Positions 54,384 through 64,000 of a DNA stretch of 64,000 nucleotides are shown here, piece after piece; the stretch's first letter is position 1, and every line of letters starts with the position of its first letter. This DNA is from Rosistilla ulvae. GTDB lineage: Bacteria; Planctomycetota; Planctomycetia; Pirellulales; Pirellulaceae. The DNA is taken from contig NZ_CP036261.1 in NCBI RefSeq assembly GCF_007741475.1, positions 1,426,001 through 1,490,000 of the forward strand. The letters run 5' to 3'. The translations under genes and the position numbers were made by a program. Below the pieces are notes generated by a model. That model worked only from the letters and a program-made list of their open reading frames with translations. It did not search any database and was not told the DNA's origin.

Positions 54384-54922
54384 GTCGCCTCACATGTCGA
54401 TTAAATAAAGAGAGTTTGAAAAGGTAGCAAATCGCATGCCAATCCCGTTAGCGTTGCGATAGTGCAAACCAACGCGCGGCGGATGACTACAATCTAGGCG
54501 TTGTCGGCCTGGAAAGTAAGCAGGTGGGTTCCCTGCCGACCGGCCCATCTTTCACCCACTGCTGGGACGAGGTTGTCCTGTTTCGATGCCGTAGGGGTGG
54601 CGCGGGGGAATCTGTTCGCAATGCTGCGAGTTTGCCAGTTGTATCGAGGATGCTGTCGCTTCCGACTGTAGCTTGCCCGTTTTGTCGATTTGAAAAAAAG
54701 GGGGGGGTTAGGAGCGACCGCGGCTTGCTCGGAGACCGAATTCCAAACTGGTGAAAGCTTTCATGGCCAACTTGTCTGGTCGTATGAAGTGCTCGCCAAC
54801 ATTGGGTCACGAATCGCCCTCTAATCGTGATGTCGTCGCGTCCGAACGCGAAACGCACGAAGCATTTCAATGGACTGCGATCGCATCGAAGCGATCGGCA
54901 ACGGGTTAGAAGGAGTCTAACA
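54384..54922. other. Divergent intergenic region without a recognised gene
   Basis: 539 bp between the leftward ATP-grasp gene and the rightward BBP7-like gene. It should hold both promoters. The only odd feature is an A7-G8 homopolymer junction near 54693-54708. Frames on both strands have no domain match and I do not call them. Confidence 0.45.
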
Positions 54923-56704
54923 GTGAGAACCAACATCATACGAAGTATGCTCTTGATACTTCCTTTTGGTCTGAGCAGCGTCGCTCAGGCGCAATACGGC
55001 GGCTACTCCGCATCGGCTTACAACAGCTATTCCGCTCAACCGAGCGCGGTACCTGTGCATCCAAGTTTGCAGGCGCGGCAAGCTCCGGCGCAACCCGCTG
55101 CGCCGACCTACGCGACGCAACAGCCTGGCTACGCCGCACCAAGCCCTAACTACGGCGGACCTCAAGCCAACTACGCCGCGCCGCAGCCCAACTATGCTCC
55201 GCCGCAAGCGAATTACAGCTACCAACCGCCGCAGAGCTTCCGCACCGTCGCTCAACACAACGGTGGCTATGAATCGATCGCTGCACCCCAGCCGACTCCG
55301 GCCGCGATGCAGGGAGGGCATGCCCCCGAACAAGTCCTGACCCCCGAAAGCTATTCGACGGGCCAACCGGTTTCGCAACCGATGAACTATGCATCGGGCG
55401 ATCCGAACTGCTCGACCTGCAATCAATCGGTCGGCAGCGGCGCAACGTACAGCTATGCTCAGCCCAACATCTACGTTCAAGCGGCCGGTGCGCCGTCGTG
55501 CGGCGGCAGCTGTGAAACGTCTTATGGTTCGGCGGGCAGCTGCGGTCCGGCCTGTTATTCCGAACCGGTTGCGTTGAGCCCTTGGTTCGGCGGCATGAGC
55601 ATGTTGTTCTTGACCCGCGACGATAACTACGATCGCCCGTTGGTCTTCGACGACGCGATGCCTTCGACAACTCGTTTGTCGGCACGCGATGCGGAACTCG
55701 ATTTCGCCCTGGGATACGATGTTACCGTCGGTCGTTACTTGGGATGTGGTCAGTACGCCGTATCGGCAACCTGGTTGCACATCGAAAACGATGAAGGTGA
55801 CCAATCGGTGATGCCACCAGCGGCTGGCGGATATCGTGCGAACTTCCGCAACTGGGATCGCATCTACTTCGATCAGAACAACGACGGGATGCACACCGAT
55901 TCCGGTATGCCTGCGACCGACGAGAGCGTCTACGCTCACTTCGATCGCGCCGAAAGCTACCGCGTGCGACGCGACGCTTCGTATTACGGCTTGGAATTGA
56001 ATCTGACCGGCTTCGGCATCGGTGGTGCCGCTCGAGCGGGACGTCCATCGTGCGGCGGCAGCTGTGGCAGCGATCCCTGCTGCCCACCAACCGGTTGTGG
56101 TGGTCTGTGTGGCCCAATGGTTCCAGCCTGCGGTGCTCGGTTGCAAATGAGCTGGACTACCGGTTTGCGTTGGTTCCACTTCGAGGACGAGATGTCCTTC
56201 AGCGCTCGCACCGAACGCTACCCTGCGGCACCTGCGATGATTGAAACCGTCGCCTACGATGTCGACGCCCAAAACGAATTGTTCGGTTGGCAATTGGGTG
56301 GCAAGCTGGCCTATTGCTTGGGCAGCCGCACCAGCCTCTACGCCGGCGGTAAGATCGGTTGGTACGCAAATGATGCCTCGCTGCGTCAACGCTTCCATTC
56401 GGAAAGCATGCCGGCACGTGTGACCGACAACGGAGCCTATCCATCCTTCGCAAACCAATCGGTCTCTCGCGACTACAGCGACACCGTTTTGGCGACCTTG
56501 GCCGAAATCGACCTTGGCATCGGATATCGAATCTGCGATTGTTGGACCGTTCGCGGTGGATATCGCATGTTGGCCGCCGGTGGCGTCGCAACGGCGATCG
56601 ACAACATCTCGGAAAACCCAGCCAACCTGGGAGCCCAGAACGTTTGGGCCGACAGCAACCTCGTCCTGCACGGTGGTTACGTTGGTGTAGATTACAACTG
56701 GTAG
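54923..56704 (+). CDS. BBP7-family outer-membrane beta-barrel protein with Tyr/Pro/Gln/Asn repeats
   Basis: 593 residues. A signal peptide ends LSSVAQA. Residues ~25-130 are a low-complexity region with repeats such as NYGGPQANYAAPQPNYAPPQ, probably an extended surface or periplasmic linker. Cys-rich patches follow (PSCGGSCETSYGSAGSCGPAC). The rest is the barrel, starting SPWFGGMSMLFLTRDDNYDR and ending LVLHGGYVGVDYNW, with a terminal aromatic as in outer-membrane proteins. A second Cys cluster (CGGSCGSDPCCPPTGCGGLC) sits in a loop. GTG at 54923 is chosen because AGGAG lies 7 bases upstream; the open frame to 54827 is unsupported. Confidence 0.87.
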   Translation: MRTNIIRSMLLILPFGLSSVAQAQYGGYSASAYNSYSAQPSAVPVHPSLQARQAPAQPAAPTYATQQPGYAAPSPNYGGPQANYAAPQPNYAPPQANYSYQPPQSFRTVAQHNGGYESIAAPQPTPAAMQGGHAPEQVLTPESYSTGQPVSQPMNYASGDPNCSTCNQSVGSGATYSYAQPNIYVQAAGAPSCGGSCETSYGSAGSCGPACYSEPVALSPWFGGMSMLFLTRDDNYDRPLVFDDAMPSTTRLSARDAELDFALGYDVTVGRYLGCGQYAVSATWLHIENDEGDQSVMPPAAGGYRANFRNWDRIYFDQNNDGMHTDSGMPATDESVYAHFDRAESYRVRRDASYYGLELNLTGFGIGGAARAGRPSCGGSCGSDPCCPPTGCGGLCGPMVPACGARLQMSWTTGLRWFHFEDEMSFSARTERYPAAPAMIETVAYDVDAQNELFGWQLGGKLAYCLGSRTSLYAGGKIGWYANDASLRQRFHSESMPARVTDNGAYPSFANQSVSRDYSDTVLATLAEIDLGIGYRICDCWTVRGGYRMLAAGGVATAIDNISENPANLGAQNVWADSNLVLHGGYVGVDYNW

Positions 56705-56865: not shown

Positions 56866-58386
56866 TCAGTCATGGGACAGCGGGTGCGGGCTGTCGACGA
56901 CTCGTGTGCTCCGTTGGCTCTGCTGAAGCAAGCGTTCCAGGCGATCGATCATCTCCGGTTCCAGCACGTGTTCGATCGCATCGGCCGACCGGTCGACCTG
57001 CGTCGCCGCCACCTCGGCATGCGTGATCAGATACATCTCCCACAACCGATGTTCATGCGTCAAACGAGCCGCTTCGTGGTAGCCCGATTTGTTGACCTTG
57101 ATCTGTTGATTGGGCAGTTGGACCAACAGCCCCGCCTCTTCCGCTTTGCGAATCCCATGCTTTAAACGCCGCATCGTCCAGCTGCGCAGCCGAAGCAGGT
57201 CGTCGAGCGAAACCGACGGGATCGGATCGCCGTTCTCGGGACCCTGGTAGCCTCGGGATTCGAGCAGTTCGTAGATGCCACGCATCAGGTGCTGGCGTTC
57301 GATCGAGCTGTTCAGCCGCCAACGCCGCAGCCAGCGTGGCAGCAGCCCACGCGCGGGGCCCAACATCATGCTGAACAAAAACAGCGCGGTCGCCACCAGC
57401 ACGATCATCGCGCCCGACGGAAGCTGTGGGAAGAGCGCACTGGTCGCCGAGCCCAGCATCCCGCTGATCGCTCCCAAGCCGGAGGCCAGCAGTACCATTC
57501 GCGTCAATTGATGCGTCCAGAACCTCGCCGCGGCCGCTGGGGTGACTAACAGTGCGATCACTAGAATCAATCCGACTGCTTGCAGTCCGACGATCGTGAC
57601 CACGACGACCAACAGCATCAAGATTCCGTCCAGCAGCGTGACTGAATAGCCTTCGCTGCCCGCAAAGCCGTCGTCGAAGCAGAGTAGTTTCAACTCTTTG
57701 AAGAGAGCGAAACAGACAAGGCAGGAGACGAAACCGGTGCCGCCGATCAACCACGCGTCGCTGGGAAGCATCGACGCGGTCTTGCCGTAGATAAACGATT
57801 CCAGCCCCGCCGAATGGCCGCTCTCCATCTGTTGGATCACGCCCAACACGGCCACCCCTGCCCCGAAGAAGACCGACAGCACAACGCCCAACGCGGTGTC
57901 TTCGCTCAATCGGGTCAGCGAGCGGATGAAGACGATCCCGGCGACGCCAATCATCCCCGTCACCGCGGCTCCCAACAACAGCACTGGAAGCGTTTTTCCG
58001 TCGAAGCCAAGTTGCGTGGCGACGATAAAGGCGAGCCCGATCCCGGGCAGCGTCGCGTGGCTGAGCGCGTCCCCCATCAAAGCGCGTTTCCGCAACAGGG
58101 TGAAGCTGCCGATCGTGCCGGCCGCCAGTCCCAACAGCGTCGTCCCTAACACGACGACGCGCGTGTTGTGATCTTGTAAAAAGATGACCCGCCGCCATTG
58201 TTCGGTCGACGGCCAGCCGAGTTCGCGATTGGCCAACGATCGCATCGCCGCAGGTTCTTCGCCCGCCGCGGTGCCGCTGGCGATCAAGCCGCAGGCGGCG
58301 AGCAACAGCAACGCAAATCGGATCCGGCGACCGGCAAGGCCGCCGGACCAGCGAAGCATGCGTTGCAGAAACCGTTGCCTGGACAT
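56866..58386 (-). CDS. Metal ABC transporter permease fused to a DtxR-like regulatory domain
   Basis: 506 residues. A signal-like segment comes first, then 8-9 membrane helices of the ZnuB/MntB/TroC-type permease family (TLLRKRALMGDALSHATLPG, DTALGVVLSVFFGAGVAVLG, GLQAVGLILVIALLVTPAAA). After about residue 340 there is a cytoplasmic region with a winged-helix-like segment (SLDDLLRLRSWTMRRLKHGI, then AEEAGLLVQLPNQQIKVNKS) and a DtxR metal-binding/dimerisation segment (HEHRLWEMYLITHAEV, HVLEPEMIDRLERLL). This puts transporter and metal sensor in one chain. ATG at 58386 overlaps the ATPase stop (TGATG); GTG at 58389 is the alternative. Confidence 0.88.
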   Translation of the reverse strand: MSRQRFLQRMLRWSGGLAGRRIRFALLLLAACGLIASGTAAGEEPAAMRSLANRELGWPSTEQWRRVIFLQDHNTRVVVLGTTLLGLAAGTIGSFTLLRKRALMGDALSHATLPGIGLAFIVATQLGFDGKTLPVLLLGAAVTGMIGVAGIVFIRSLTRLSEDTALGVVLSVFFGAGVAVLGVIQQMESGHSAGLESFIYGKTASMLPSDAWLIGGTGFVSCLVCFALFKELKLLCFDDGFAGSEGYSVTLLDGILMLLVVVVTIVGLQAVGLILVIALLVTPAAAARFWTHQLTRMVLLASGLGAISGMLGSATSALFPQLPSGAMIVLVATALFLFSMMLGPARGLLPRWLRRWRLNSSIERQHLMRGIYELLESRGYQGPENGDPIPSVSLDDLLRLRSWTMRRLKHGIRKAEEAGLLVQLPNQQIKVNKSGYHEAARLTHEHRLWEMYLITHAEVAATQVDRSADAIEHVLEPEMIDRLERLLQQSQRSTRVVDSPHPLSHD

Positions 58387-59174
58387 CACTGCTGCACTCG
58401 CCGAATCGCCTCGGATGCTTCGTCCAACAACGTCAGTCGCCCGCCGTACGCCTTGGTCAGATTCTGCTCGGTGAAGGTCGTTTTGGTCGGCCCGTGCGCG
58501 ACAACTCGCATGTTCAACAGCACGACGTAATCGAAATAATCGGCGACGGTTTGCAAGTCGTGGTGGATCACCAATACCGTTTTCCCGCGAGCCCGCATCT
58601 CTTGCAAGATGTTCAGGATCGCTCGTTCGGTCGACGCATCGACCGCGGCAAACGGTTCGTCCATCAAATACAAATCGGCGTCTTGAACCAACGCTCTAGC
58701 CAAGAAGGTCCGTTGTTGTTGGCCCCCCGACAGCTGGCTGATCTGCCGCTTCGCCAGGTCGGCGATTCCGACGCGGTCCAACGCTTCGAGCGCCGCTTGG
58801 CGATGCTTGCGGCGAACCGGCAGGCACCAACCGATCTGGCCATACAGCCCCATCGTGACGACGTCCAAGGCGTCGACCGGGAAGTCCCAATCGACACTCT
58901 CACGCTGCGGAACGTAAGCGACGCGGTGGCGGTTCTTGTCGTACGGCTTTCCAAAGACCAGCACCCGCCCGGAGGCTCGCGGCACCAGATCCATCGCCGC
59001 TTTGATCAACGTGCTCTTCCCCGCGCCGTTGGGGCCGACGACGCCGATCAACTGCCCTTTGGGAAAGTCGACGCAGATGTCCCAGATCACGGGCTTGCGA
59101 TGGTAGGCAACGGTCAAATCATAGATCGACAGCGGGATCTGGTCGTTGGCGGTCGATTCGAGCGGTTGGTTCAT
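58386..59174 (-). CDS. Metal ABC transporter ATP-binding protein (ZnuC/MntB/TroB type)
   Basis: 262 residues. Nucleotide-binding motifs are complete: Walker A GVVGPNGAGKSTLIKAAMD, Q-loop VAYVPQRESVDWDFPVD, ABC signature QLSGGQQQRTFLARALVQ, Walker B DLYLMDEPFAAVD, and the switch His in VLVIHHDLQTV. The SVDWDFP Q-loop is typical of Mn/Zn/Fe ATPases. It sits between the solute-binding protein (30 bp upstream) and the permease-DtxR fusion (1-bp stop/start overlap). Confidence 0.95.
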   Translation of the reverse strand: MNQPLESTANDQIPLSIYDLTVAYHRKPVIWDICVDFPKGQLIGVVGPNGAGKSTLIKAAMDLVPRASGRVLVFGKPYDKNRHRVAYVPQRESVDWDFPVDALDVVTMGLYGQIGWCLPVRRKHRQAALEALDRVGIADLAKRQISQLSGGQQQRTFLARALVQDADLYLMDEPFAAVDASTERAILNILQEMRARGKTVLVIHHDLQTVADYFDYVVLLNMRVVAHGPTKTTFTEQNLTKAYGGRLTLLDEASEAIRRVQQ

Positions 59175-59204: not shown

Positions 59205-60188
59205 TCATTCGCTGAGCTTATCGTTCAGGCCGCGCTCCGGGGCTTCGCCCCCCAAAGCCCGCACCACACGCGTGATATTGTGATCCATCATCCCGACGTA
59301 AGTCCCTTCGTAGCTGCCCGCGGCGCCCATCGCATCGGAGAACAGCTCGCCCCCAATCTTAACCTCTTGGCCGCGCGATGCGGCGCCGTTGACCAAAGCT
59401 TCGATATTTTTTCGCGGCACGCTGCTCTCGACAAAGACCGCCCTGACCTTCTTGTCGATCAACAGGTCGACGAGCCCATTGATCCGTTGCAGCCCCGCCT
59501 CCGACTCGGTCGACAGCCCTTGCACGCCTAGCACCTGCAGATCATAGGCTCTGCCAAAGTAGTTGAACGCATCGTGCGACGTGACCAAGATCCGGTTCTC
59601 TGCGGGGATCGTCTGCATGCTCCGCAGGCCGAACTCGTGCAATTCGCTCAATTGCTGCTGGTACTTCGCTGCGTTAGCCTGGTAGTCGTCCGCGTGATCG
59701 GGATCGAAATCGGCCAACGCCTTGCGGACGACTTCGATGCACTGGCTCCACGCCTGGATGTCGTTCCAGACGTGCGGATCGAAGTGCCCTTGAGCGTCTT
59801 CGGGTTCCAACAGGTACGTTTCGTCGATCGCTTCGGTGACCGCCCAGACCGGTTTGCTGCGTCCGGCGCGGACCAGGGTGTCACCCATTTTGCCTTCCAG
59901 CATCAGCCCGCTGTAGAAGACGACGTCGGCCCCCAGGATCGATTGCACGTCGTCGCGGGTCGGTTTGTAAAGGTGCGGATCGGTTCCAGGTCCCAACAGT
60001 TGCACGACCTCGACTTGATCGCCGCCGACGTTCCGAGCGAGATCGGCGACCATTCCGGTCGTCGTCAGCACGCGAATCGGCCGCGATGGATCGCGCTGCG
60101 TCTGCGTCGCCGATTCGGGGGACCGCTGGCAGCCGACGATCAAGGCGATCAGCAACATCCACGATCCGACAGCTCGATCGATCTTCAT
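59205..60188 (-). CDS. Metal-binding lipoprotein of the TroA/ZnuA cluster A-I family
   Basis: 327 residues. The lipobox LIVGC puts the lipid anchor at C20. Metal ligands align with TroA: H72 (GTDPHLY), H139 (HFDPHVW), H205 (VTSHDAFNYFGRAY) and D285 (GGELFSDAMG). The three-His/one-Asp set is that of Zn/Mn-binding TroA, rather than the Glu-containing Mn type of PsaA, and there is no ZnuA-type His-rich loop. It delivers the metal to the permease. First gene of the three-gene operon. The metal (Zn2+, Mn2+ or Fe2+) cannot be fixed from sequence. Confidence 0.93.
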   Translation of the reverse strand: MKIDRAVGSWMLLIALIVGCQRSPESATQTQRDPSRPIRVLTTTGMVADLARNVGGDQVEVVQLLGPGTDPHLYKPTRDDVQSILGADVVFYSGLMLEGKMGDTLVRAGRSKPVWAVTEAIDETYLLEPEDAQGHFDPHVWNDIQAWSQCIEVVRKALADFDPDHADDYQANAAKYQQQLSELHEFGLRSMQTIPAENRILVTSHDAFNYFGRAYDLQVLGVQGLSTESEAGLQRINGLVDLLIDKKVRAVFVESSVPRKNIEALVNGAASRGQEVKIGGELFSDAMGAAGSYEGTYVGMMDHNITRVVRALGGEAPERGLNDKLSE

Positions 60189-60239
60189 TCCCTGCGATTC
60201 CCAAAAGGAGACAATTTGTAGCCGGTGCTAACTTTTTCC

Positions 60240-60251
60240 CGATTGTAATCG
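60240..60251. promoter_or_regulatory. 12-bp palindrome upstream of the metal ABC operon
   Basis: CGATTGTAATCG is a dyad (CGATT-GT-AATCG) 52 bp upstream of the binding-protein start codon and between it and the lipase stop. Its position suits an operator for a metalloregulator, but it is short and no second copy was seen. Confidence 0.3.
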
Positions 60252-62503: not shown

Positions 62504-64000
62504 TTAACTGCCGACGGTTTTGTTCCAGTGGTTCTTGAGGAATTTGTCGAACGGTTCAGCATTCAACTTTTCGTCGTTCCAGAACTCAAAGGTGACTTTG
62601 ATGTCTCCCTTGGTTCGGGCCGGCGGTTTAATTCCCAGTTTACCCAACGCGACGCAGTCGATCGCTTGGTGCGGTCCGTCGACAGTGATCCGCAGGTTCA
62701 TCGGATCTTTGGTTTCGATCTCGCACCAAGAGTGATTTTGGCCCGCCGGACGGACGTTGATCTTCTCGGGCGAACCAAACTCGACGCTCTCCTCGCCGGC
62801 AAAGGCGATGATTTTATCGAGCAACTTGTCGACAAGTTCCAACGGCCAATCGGGCTTTTCGCCTTCGGGGAAGCCTTTTTCCAGGGTGTGCCATTTGCGG
62901 CCCATCACCCGCCACGGGCTCATCGCATCCAGCTTCTCTTCGACTTCCTTTTCGGCTTGCAGCGCGGCCTGCCGGGTTCGAGCGACTTCGACCTTCGATG
63001 GACCATCCTCGGGACCGCGCCAGCTGGGGCGACTGATCTGCGGTTTGGTTCGCGTCTCGTGAACAAACACCTTGGCGTACGCAGCGATCGCTTCGTCCAA
63101 GAAGTGCCAGAACTCGGGGCGATCCATCTCTTCAAACTTGACGAATCGAATCTCGATCTCTTGGAACTTCGGATCGGTGTGGACGCGAACCCGTGGTTCG
63201 TTGCTGTAAGCCGGGATGTCTTCCATCTGATTCAGCGTCGGCAGCGGCAGGCGTCGTGGCAGATCGTCTTTGTTAAACGTTCCCTTTGGAACCCGCAGCT
63301 TCAACTTCATCCACCACGATTCGGAGGTGAACAAGTGCATGAACCAGGGACGGCTGGCGATCGGGCCTTTGACTTCGACGATGTTGCGGTGGTTGAAGTT
63401 GATAGGTTCGAAACAGTCCGCCTCTTCCATCCGCTGGACGATCGGCAGCACCATCTTCTCTTCCCATGAGACGGGATCGCCGGCGTTGTCGACAAGTTCG
63501 GTCGTGTGCCATTTGCGGCCATCCTCTTCCCAGGGCATCTTGGACCCTTCGCCGATCACAGGAGCGGCCTGTTCGCGTTCGAACTGTTCCAACGCCGCGG
63601 CGTGCGGATCAAATTCGTCACGATGTTCGTAGGGGCCCGCTTCGACCACGGGCGCCAAGAATTCACCGGTATAGCTGCGAAGCGGCTTCGTTTTGGCTCG
63701 CGACTTTTTCCCGGCGACTGCGTATTCGCTCAGCTGTTCGGGGGTTCCGGCGAAGACCAACTGGCCCCCTTCGGCTCCCGCTTCGGGACCGATGTCCAGG
63801 ATCCAGTCGGCAGCTTTGATGATGTCCAGGTTGTGTTCGATCACCAGCACTGTGTTGCCGACGTCGACAAGTCGCTGCAGGACGTTCAACAGCTTGGCGA
63901 TGTCGTCGAAGTGCAAACCGGTTGTCGGTTCGTCCAACAGATACAGCGTCCGCCCGGTATCGGGGCGGGCCAATTCCGCCGCCAGTTTAATCCGCTGGGC
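62504..64000 (-). CDS. uvrA: UvrA excinuclease subunit, 3' part, with a long C-terminal extension (5' truncated by window)
   Basis: 499 residues are visible; the frame runs off the right edge. It starts inside the second ATPase: [12 protein letters not shown] (end of the signature motif), Walker [37 protein letters not shown] and [14 protein letters not shown]. Ordinary UvrA ends near [10 protein letters not shown]. Here about 375 more residues follow (62504 to ~63640). The extension looks like two divergent copies of one domain: copy 1 starts [12 protein letters not shown], copy 2 [12 protein letters not shown]. Each continues with a beta-rich part and an aromatic helix ([11 protein letters not shown] / [10 protein letters not shown]). 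UvrA recognises bulky DNA lesions with UvrB; the role of the extension is unknown. Confidence 0.93.

Follow-up and report, generated by a model that had tools for sequence, protein, structure and literature searches.

The last gene of a metal-uptake operon in Rosistilla ulvae encodes an ABC permease that runs on into a DtxR-like metalloregulator domain, and we favour, with some confidence, the view that this domain is a metal-sensing brake on an importer of the Mn(2+)/Fe(2+) type (trans-inhibition), with a separate repressor for transcription. In the mechanism that we propose, the DtxR-like domain would lie in the cytosol and bind the imported metal. In DtxR and MntR, metal pulls helix 1 against the metal-binding and dimerisation domain. 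As helix 1 would here continue the last helix of the permease, metal binding could be transmitted to the permease, which would then be locked or slowed. Where both permeases of a locus, C and D, are fused, the two domains would probably pair under one transporter, and transcription of the operon would be left to a separate DtxR-family repressor. The metal may be Mn(2+) or Fe(2+), judging from an MntR-type promoter site and a PsaBC-like permease. The first-pass annotation of the window, i.e., of the whole 64,000-nucleotide stretch of DNA analysed here, had offered two readings of the fusion, a membrane-tethered transcription factor or a domain that senses metal and gates the transporter. Conserved metal ligands, a drifting DNA-reading part, an invariant tether modelled as a helix and a promoter site that fits a separate repressor together favour the second reading; they weaken the first, although the winged-helix fold and positive charge of the domain persist.

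Table 1. Features of the fused gene, its operon and its promoter in the window.
Feature	Position	Strand	Remarks
Permease-DtxR fusion gene, C-type	56866..58389	-	Single unbroken frame, 507 codons before the stop, counted from GTG 58389
Metal-binding/dimerisation domain, residues 434-493	56911..57090	-	Fe_dep_repr_C, PF02742, 1e-12
Ligand positions in the metal/dimerisation domain			H447, E451, D466, D470, E473, H474
Helices 2-3 and wing (former DNA-reading part), residues 393-435	57085..57213	-	Drifts in sequence; predicted to keep its fold
Continuous coupling helix, residues 349-378 (model 288-317)	57256..57345	-	AlphaFold; links the permease to DtxR helix 1
ABC-3 permease domain, residues 75-343	57361..58167	-	Pfam PF00950, 1.8e-60
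ATP-binding subunit	58386..59174	-	Pfam ABC_tran; the top NCBIfam models, for Mn/Fe ABC ATPases, stay under their cut-offs
Periplasmic binding protein, ZnuA/TroA family	59205..60188	-	Pfam ZnuA, 9.3e-77
Candidate MntR operator TAGC-N4-GCTA	60219..60230	.	Upstream of the binding-protein gene
Palindrome CGATT-GT-AATCG	60240..60251	.	Present; no sign of an operator role

The operon is read from the reverse strand in the order binding protein, ATPase and fused permease, the fusion being the third and last gene (Table 1). Its start is probably ATG 58386, also the end coordinate of the first-pass annotation, rather than GTG 58389, because the ATG overlaps the stop of the ATPase gene as TGATG. The best NCBIfam models for the binding protein were AztC, EfaA and MntC, none of which reached its cut-off. 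The permease falls into the ABC-3 (TroCD/ZnuB) class by a domain above cut-off and by its operon with an ATPase and a ZnuA-type binding protein. Its DtxR-like domain (residues ~349-493) belongs to the DtxR superfamily, with PF02742 above cut-off and equivalents of H79, E83, E105 and H106. PF01325, the DNA-binding model of the DtxR family, is absent from the Pfam list of the protein, even at E values up to 10. The fusion is confirmed as genuine: an artefact of assembly, frameshift or chance is ruled out by the unbroken frame and by conservation, both in two congeners (99% and 96% identity) and more widely. Two further frames of the window carry long extra parts, namely a partial frame on the reverse strand (62504-64000) with what by impression is a UvrA-type end and a long C-terminal addition, and a forward frame (54830-56704) in which a BBP7 beta-barrel porin match is preceded by a long N-terminal stretch rich in proline, glutamine and tyrosine.

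The source genome holds two ABC-3 genes above cut-off, and both are fused, the C-type in the window and a D-type at 3.02 Mb (L006:7210-8535, 441 aa, intact). Within the 16 kb fetched around the D-type gene, neither a binding-protein or ATPase match nor a TAGC-N4-GCTA site was found. The third DtxR-family gene of the genome encodes a separate MntR of 135 residues (L007:4651-5058), whose closest PDB entry is mntR 2h09 (9e-28), which we take to be the E. coli protein.

The fusion is widespread, occurring in Planctomycetota and Verrucomicrobiota as well as in contigs that bear the labels of several further phyla. The nearest named relatives among the matches listed are planctomycetes such as Roseimaritima and Rubripirellula; the protein was matched in 59 of 60 relatives' genomes, and 47 of the 60 sampled genomes showed at least one match extending from the permease into the tail (counted by hand). 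In a first sample of 42 loci, fused C and fused D occurred together in 21, both were unfused in three (L066, L067, L077), and a fused D accompanied an unfused C in one (L068). Tails of fewer than 100 residues were left out of the first-sample comparisons (C of L066, L067, L068 and L077; D of L050, L052, L066, L067 and L077). Six loci (L069-L074, e.g., L071:6543-8201) carry a third arrangement, here called T-type, in which a single permease bears a DtxR-like tail and an extra C-terminal part; a FeoA/SH3-like domain was matched in two of the six T-type tails and in none of the C and D tails.

For a wider set, public species genomes were searched with two peptide patterns, and the best 80 of 570 relatives (592 stretches) were analysed. 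They are labelled as Planctomycetota, Verrucomicrobiota, Kiritimatiellae, Spirochaetaceae, Latescibacterota, Omnitrophota and Bacteroidota, with one Azospirillum; most of these records are MAGs, and their phylum labels may be wrong. Among these best 80, a C-type tail of at least 100 residues was present in 78 and both C and D were fused in 50, a fused fraction that is not independent evidence, as one search pattern contained HRLWE; the same holds for the conservation of H79 and E83 in this set, while the other ligands, the 19-residue tether and the DNA-binding result described below lie outside that motif. The length threshold left 78 C and 51 D tails. A fused C with a short D was seen in 21 loci of the best 80, in five of which (L125, L139, L148, L152, L168) the D frame ends at the edge of the DNA, so that at least 16 loci, 13 of them labelled verrucomicrobial, have a fused C next to a D that is complete but unfused. 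A tree of 94 tails, for which the C tails were sampled one in three, the D tails one in two and separate repressors were trimmed to 150 residues, was rooted at its midpoint. In this tree a supported branch (98/86) divides the fused C and D tails from the separate repressors and the T-type, which is compatible with a single origin of the C and D tails.

According to the AlphaFold model of the window protein (pLDDT 91.2, pTM 0.86), the permease is followed by a continuous helix, two more helices, a two-strand wing and the metal/dimerisation helices. The permease of this model matches PsaBC (7kyp/7kyo) in Foldseek with an E value of 9e-16, a TMt of 0.83-0.89 and 31-32% identity. The tail is matched to DtxR/MntR-family repressors with probability 1.00 and E values of only 0.04-0.2 in the C model, and with a good match (E 6e-6, TMt 0.84) in the D model, which superposes on DR2539 in its DNA-bound form (1.8 A across 129 columns). 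Profile comparison aligned the tail with IdeR-like repressors at 98.1% probability, in an alignment that begins with helix 1, includes the former helix-turn-helix and extends to the metal domain; the PDB sequence match to DtxR-family repressors is weak (best E 9.5e-5) and takes in the last part of helix 3 together with the wing and the metal domain. The winged-helix fold is predicted, from the C and D models and Foldseek. The first-pass description of a permease joined to winged-helix-like and DtxR metal/dimerisation segments is borne out by Pfam, AlphaFold, Foldseek and profile comparison. It would have fallen had the winged helix and the ligands been missing; the predicted fold and the ligands are present and the fusion stands, while the DNA-binding sequence model fails.

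Both the C and the D model predict one unbroken helix from the permease into DtxR helix 1, and in the window protein this helix carries the first ligand position, H367. The tether does not vary in length. Exactly 19 residues separate an invariant glycine at the end of the permease from the first ligand position in all 79 C and all 76 D sequences of the best 80 relatives. The spacing from helix 1 to H79 is variable in the same set (45-103 residues in C, 57-89 in D), and H79 and H106 are 27 residues apart in 79/79 C and 71/76 D.

The part that reads DNA in the separate repressors has fared differently from the metal domain. Among the best 80 relatives, PF02742 matched 78 of 79 C tails and all 51 D tails, and PF01325 matched one C tail (E 0.0079) and no D tail, whereas the separate DtxR-family proteins of the same loci matched PF01325 in 35/35 cases and PF02742 in 34/35, one protein being cut short. 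The first sample gave the same picture, with PF02742 in 25/29 C, 25/25 D and 6/6 T tails, PF01325 in 0/29, 0/25 and 0/6, and both models in all separate repressors (MntR 21/21, IdeR-like 9/9). When the metal domain was matched at 60-70% identity, helices 2-3 were 31-33% (C), 26-27% (D) and 26% (T) identical, compared with 46-60% in separate repressors. Expressed as the ratio of mean column identity in helices 2-3 to that in the metal domain, values were 0.42 (C) and 0.36 (D) versus 0.87 for separate proteins among the best 80 relatives, and 0.53, 0.31 and 0.43 (C, D, T) versus 0.99 (MntR) and 0.85 (IdeR-like) in the first sample. At the level of sequence, these comparisons show a conserved metal site next to a drifting DNA-reading part. 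Net charge from helix 2 to the wing, considered as a sign of lost DNA binding, gave no support, as it remains positive in C (+3.2) and D (+2.1), compared with +2.0 in separate proteins, +1.2 in the MntR set and -0.7 in the IdeR-like set.

The promoter of the operon points to a separate regulator. The TAGC-N4-GCTA site at 60219..60230 is the sole copy in the window, and eight of 100 shuffles of the window contain one. There are 23 such sites in the genome, a single contig of 7.48 Mb; a reversed-pattern control was much commoner (1534 versus 23 in the source genome), which shows only that the box is rare, and density was used for this reason. The longer GTTAGC-N4-GCTA occurs three times in the genome on either strand: in the operon promoter, upstream of mntR and at the end of an unrelated frame. 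The copy next to the separate mntR lies upstream of that gene by ~220 bases and of a divergent neighbour by some 40. Between mntR and a neighbouring gene (L007:5200-5293), two tandem one-mismatch matches to TTAGC-N4-GCTAA accompany the exact box, an arrangement that suggests autoregulation of mntR. The same TAGC-N4-GCTA core is found just upstream of E. coli mntH, with a second copy inside mntH; it was taken from the E. coli K-12 sequence, and our literature search found no text describing it. The palindrome at 60240-60251, to which DNA binding had been proposed in the first-pass annotation, does exist, but we rejected it as the main operator: the adjoining 60219-60230, with the core of E. coli mntH, is the better candidate and points to the separate MntR. 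Conservation of the palindrome is uninformative because three congeners show 97% identity over the whole stretch of promoter that was aligned.

Across loci, the boxes are associated with repressor types. In the first sample, the TAGC box lies upstream in 7/16 loci of genomes with this MntR type and in 0/19 without it (p 0.002; 35 loci with a binding protein, two from one genome, and three of the seven positives from one genus); the box of L045 is inside a long open frame, upstream of the start of the binding-protein match. For the best 80 relatives, the test covered the 65 loci in which the region upstream of the binding-protein gene was in view. A second palindrome, TTGA-N4-TCAA, occurs in 22 of these 65 loci (e.g., L127:2556-2575) and is a candidate operator for the IdeR-type repressor class. 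It was found upstream of the binding protein in 13/20 loci with an IdeR-type gene versus 9/45 others (p 7e-4), whereas TAGC-N4-GCTA was found in 0/20 versus 19/45 (p 3e-4), with p values that ignore kinship among loci; the box background was 0.003-0.005 per region scanned. The TAGC box was not commoner beside MntR-type genes in this set (4/13 versus 15/32 without a separate repressor in view, p 0.5). Nine of those 32 loci have the TTGA box, and of all 65, 25 have neither box and one has both. These associations, which are not proof, make a separate repressor, MntR in this genome, the likely regulator of the operon. That the operon has its own repressor does not prove that the fused domain lacks another target.

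The strongest alternative is that the permease gene makes a repressor as in Chlamydia, its tail being cleaved off or acting at the membrane to repress the operon or other genes when loaded with metal. We regard this as unlikely, even with the precedent of YtgC-YtgR, which excerpts of two papers describe as cleaved in infected cells and upon expression in E. coli (PMC5599777, PMC7755916). The winged helix is intact in both models and superposes on a DNA-bound repressor, and positive charge is retained, which would suit a repressor; the near-complete lack of PF01325 matches in the tails and the drift of helices 2-3 do not. Nor does the promoter evidence from the best 80 relatives, where TTGA-N4-TCAA is associated with IdeR-type neighbours and TAGC-N4-GCTA is absent beside them. 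The tether is of constant length and is modelled as a helix, with no flexible linker, which speaks against proteolytic release.

The brake that we favour depends on the metal site, for which positions M10/D8, H79, E83, H98, C102, E105 and H106 were compared. The conservation of DtxR ligands, a check proposed at the outset, proved to be high: among the best 80 relatives, 75 of 79 C tails keep all six core positions, as H, E, [DHE], [DEH], E, H, and 45 of 51 D tails likewise have the full set, the six exceptions in D deviating at position 102 alone. In the first sample, D-type tails read D, H, E, H, x, E, H in 25/25 cases (x being E, H, D or S), and C-type tails read exactly H, H, E, D, D, E, H in 17/29, with a similar set in six more; the C-type mostly has D at the H98 and C102 positions. 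Five of the 29 C tails (L059, L060, L062, L063, L065) have lost several ligands that the neighbouring D tail retains, reminiscent of a half-dead heterodimer. The C tail of L050 has lost two ligand positions, and the lone Azospirillum tail is short and lacks most ligands.

A conserved ligand set on the C-terminal helix of the permease would also be expected if the domain were a metal acceptor, taking the ion at the cytosolic exit and buffering it or passing it on, for example to the separate MntR, with the pump left uncontrolled. This would tolerate one domain per transporter, as in loci with an unfused D; it leaves the fixed 19-residue helical tether and the kept winged-helix fold unexplained, and we consider it improbable. 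Least of all do we expect a purely structural role, in which dimerisation of the tails would hold two permease subunits together and metal would be minor: the fusion of both paralogues in 50 of the best 80 relatives and in 21/42 first-sample loci, and the five C tails without their ligands beside an intact D, would fit, but D shows little or no variation at six of the seven ligand positions, and it is unfused in at least 16 loci.

Against the metal-sensing brake itself stand the winged-helix fold, which is predicted to be intact and in the D model superposes on DNA-bound DR2539, the positive charge kept from helix 2 to the wing, and the description, in excerpts, of YtgR, the sole studied relative, as DNA-binding (PMC5599777, PMC7755916). 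Pairing of two domains within one C:D transporter would moreover not be general, given the at least 16 loci with a fused C and an unfused D. We see evenly balanced chances for a broader proposal, namely that a wide class of Mn/Fe importers has turned a metalloregulator into an allosteric brake, driven by movement of helix 1 through the invariant helix, with limits on both gene and protein and with YtgR as one lineage that serves transcription. If true, these importers would exemplify the conversion of a transcription-factor fold into a brake on a transporter, and metal importers and permease-borne domains would join the few ABC importers with known trans-inhibition. Uptake of manganese or iron in environmental bacteria would then be controlled at two levels, and the permease-repressor of Chlamydia, the sole such fusion that we found described, would gain a context.

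PsaBC imports manganese and shares the permease fold (7kyp, 7kyo), and its solved chains of 258-290 residues have no DtxR-like tail. The fused tails share their fold (by Foldseek and profile comparison) and their ligand positions with MntR, DtxR and IdeR; they differ in being linked to a membrane protein, in failing the DNA-binding sequence model and, in the C-type, in having mostly D at H98 and C102. A parallel to the proposed logic is found in MetNI and ModABC, where, according to an excerpt of PMC10710835, transport is halted when substrate that has been imported occupies an additional domain in the cytosol. In those systems the domain is part of the ATPase and has other folds, whereas here it is a metalloregulator on the permease.

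The first-pass statement that the repressor is a separate protein in known loci is incomplete, as a fusion of metal permease and DtxR-like domain is already known from Chlamydia trachomatis (YtgC-YtgR, CT069; excerpts of PMC5599777, PMC7755916 and PMC10972484), with homologous genes throughout the Chlamydiae (excerpt of PMC10972484). Outside the Chlamydiae, a search of open-licence PMC papers, partly at the level of titles and abstract starts, returned no description of permease-DtxR fusions. As far as this search goes, what is new here is the breadth of the family, the double fusion, the split between metal site and DNA reader, the invariant tether and the operator evidence. Like the window protein, YtgC-YtgR is described in these excerpts as a metal ABC permease with a C-terminal DtxR-like domain, in an operon with a binding protein; its operon also includes a second permease. 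YtgR, compared here by description, reportedly binds DNA, is cleaved and regulates its own operon, whereas in the window the promoter site fits a separate repressor and the DNA reader drifts. In the present family, unlike YtgC-YtgR, the second permease is often fused too.
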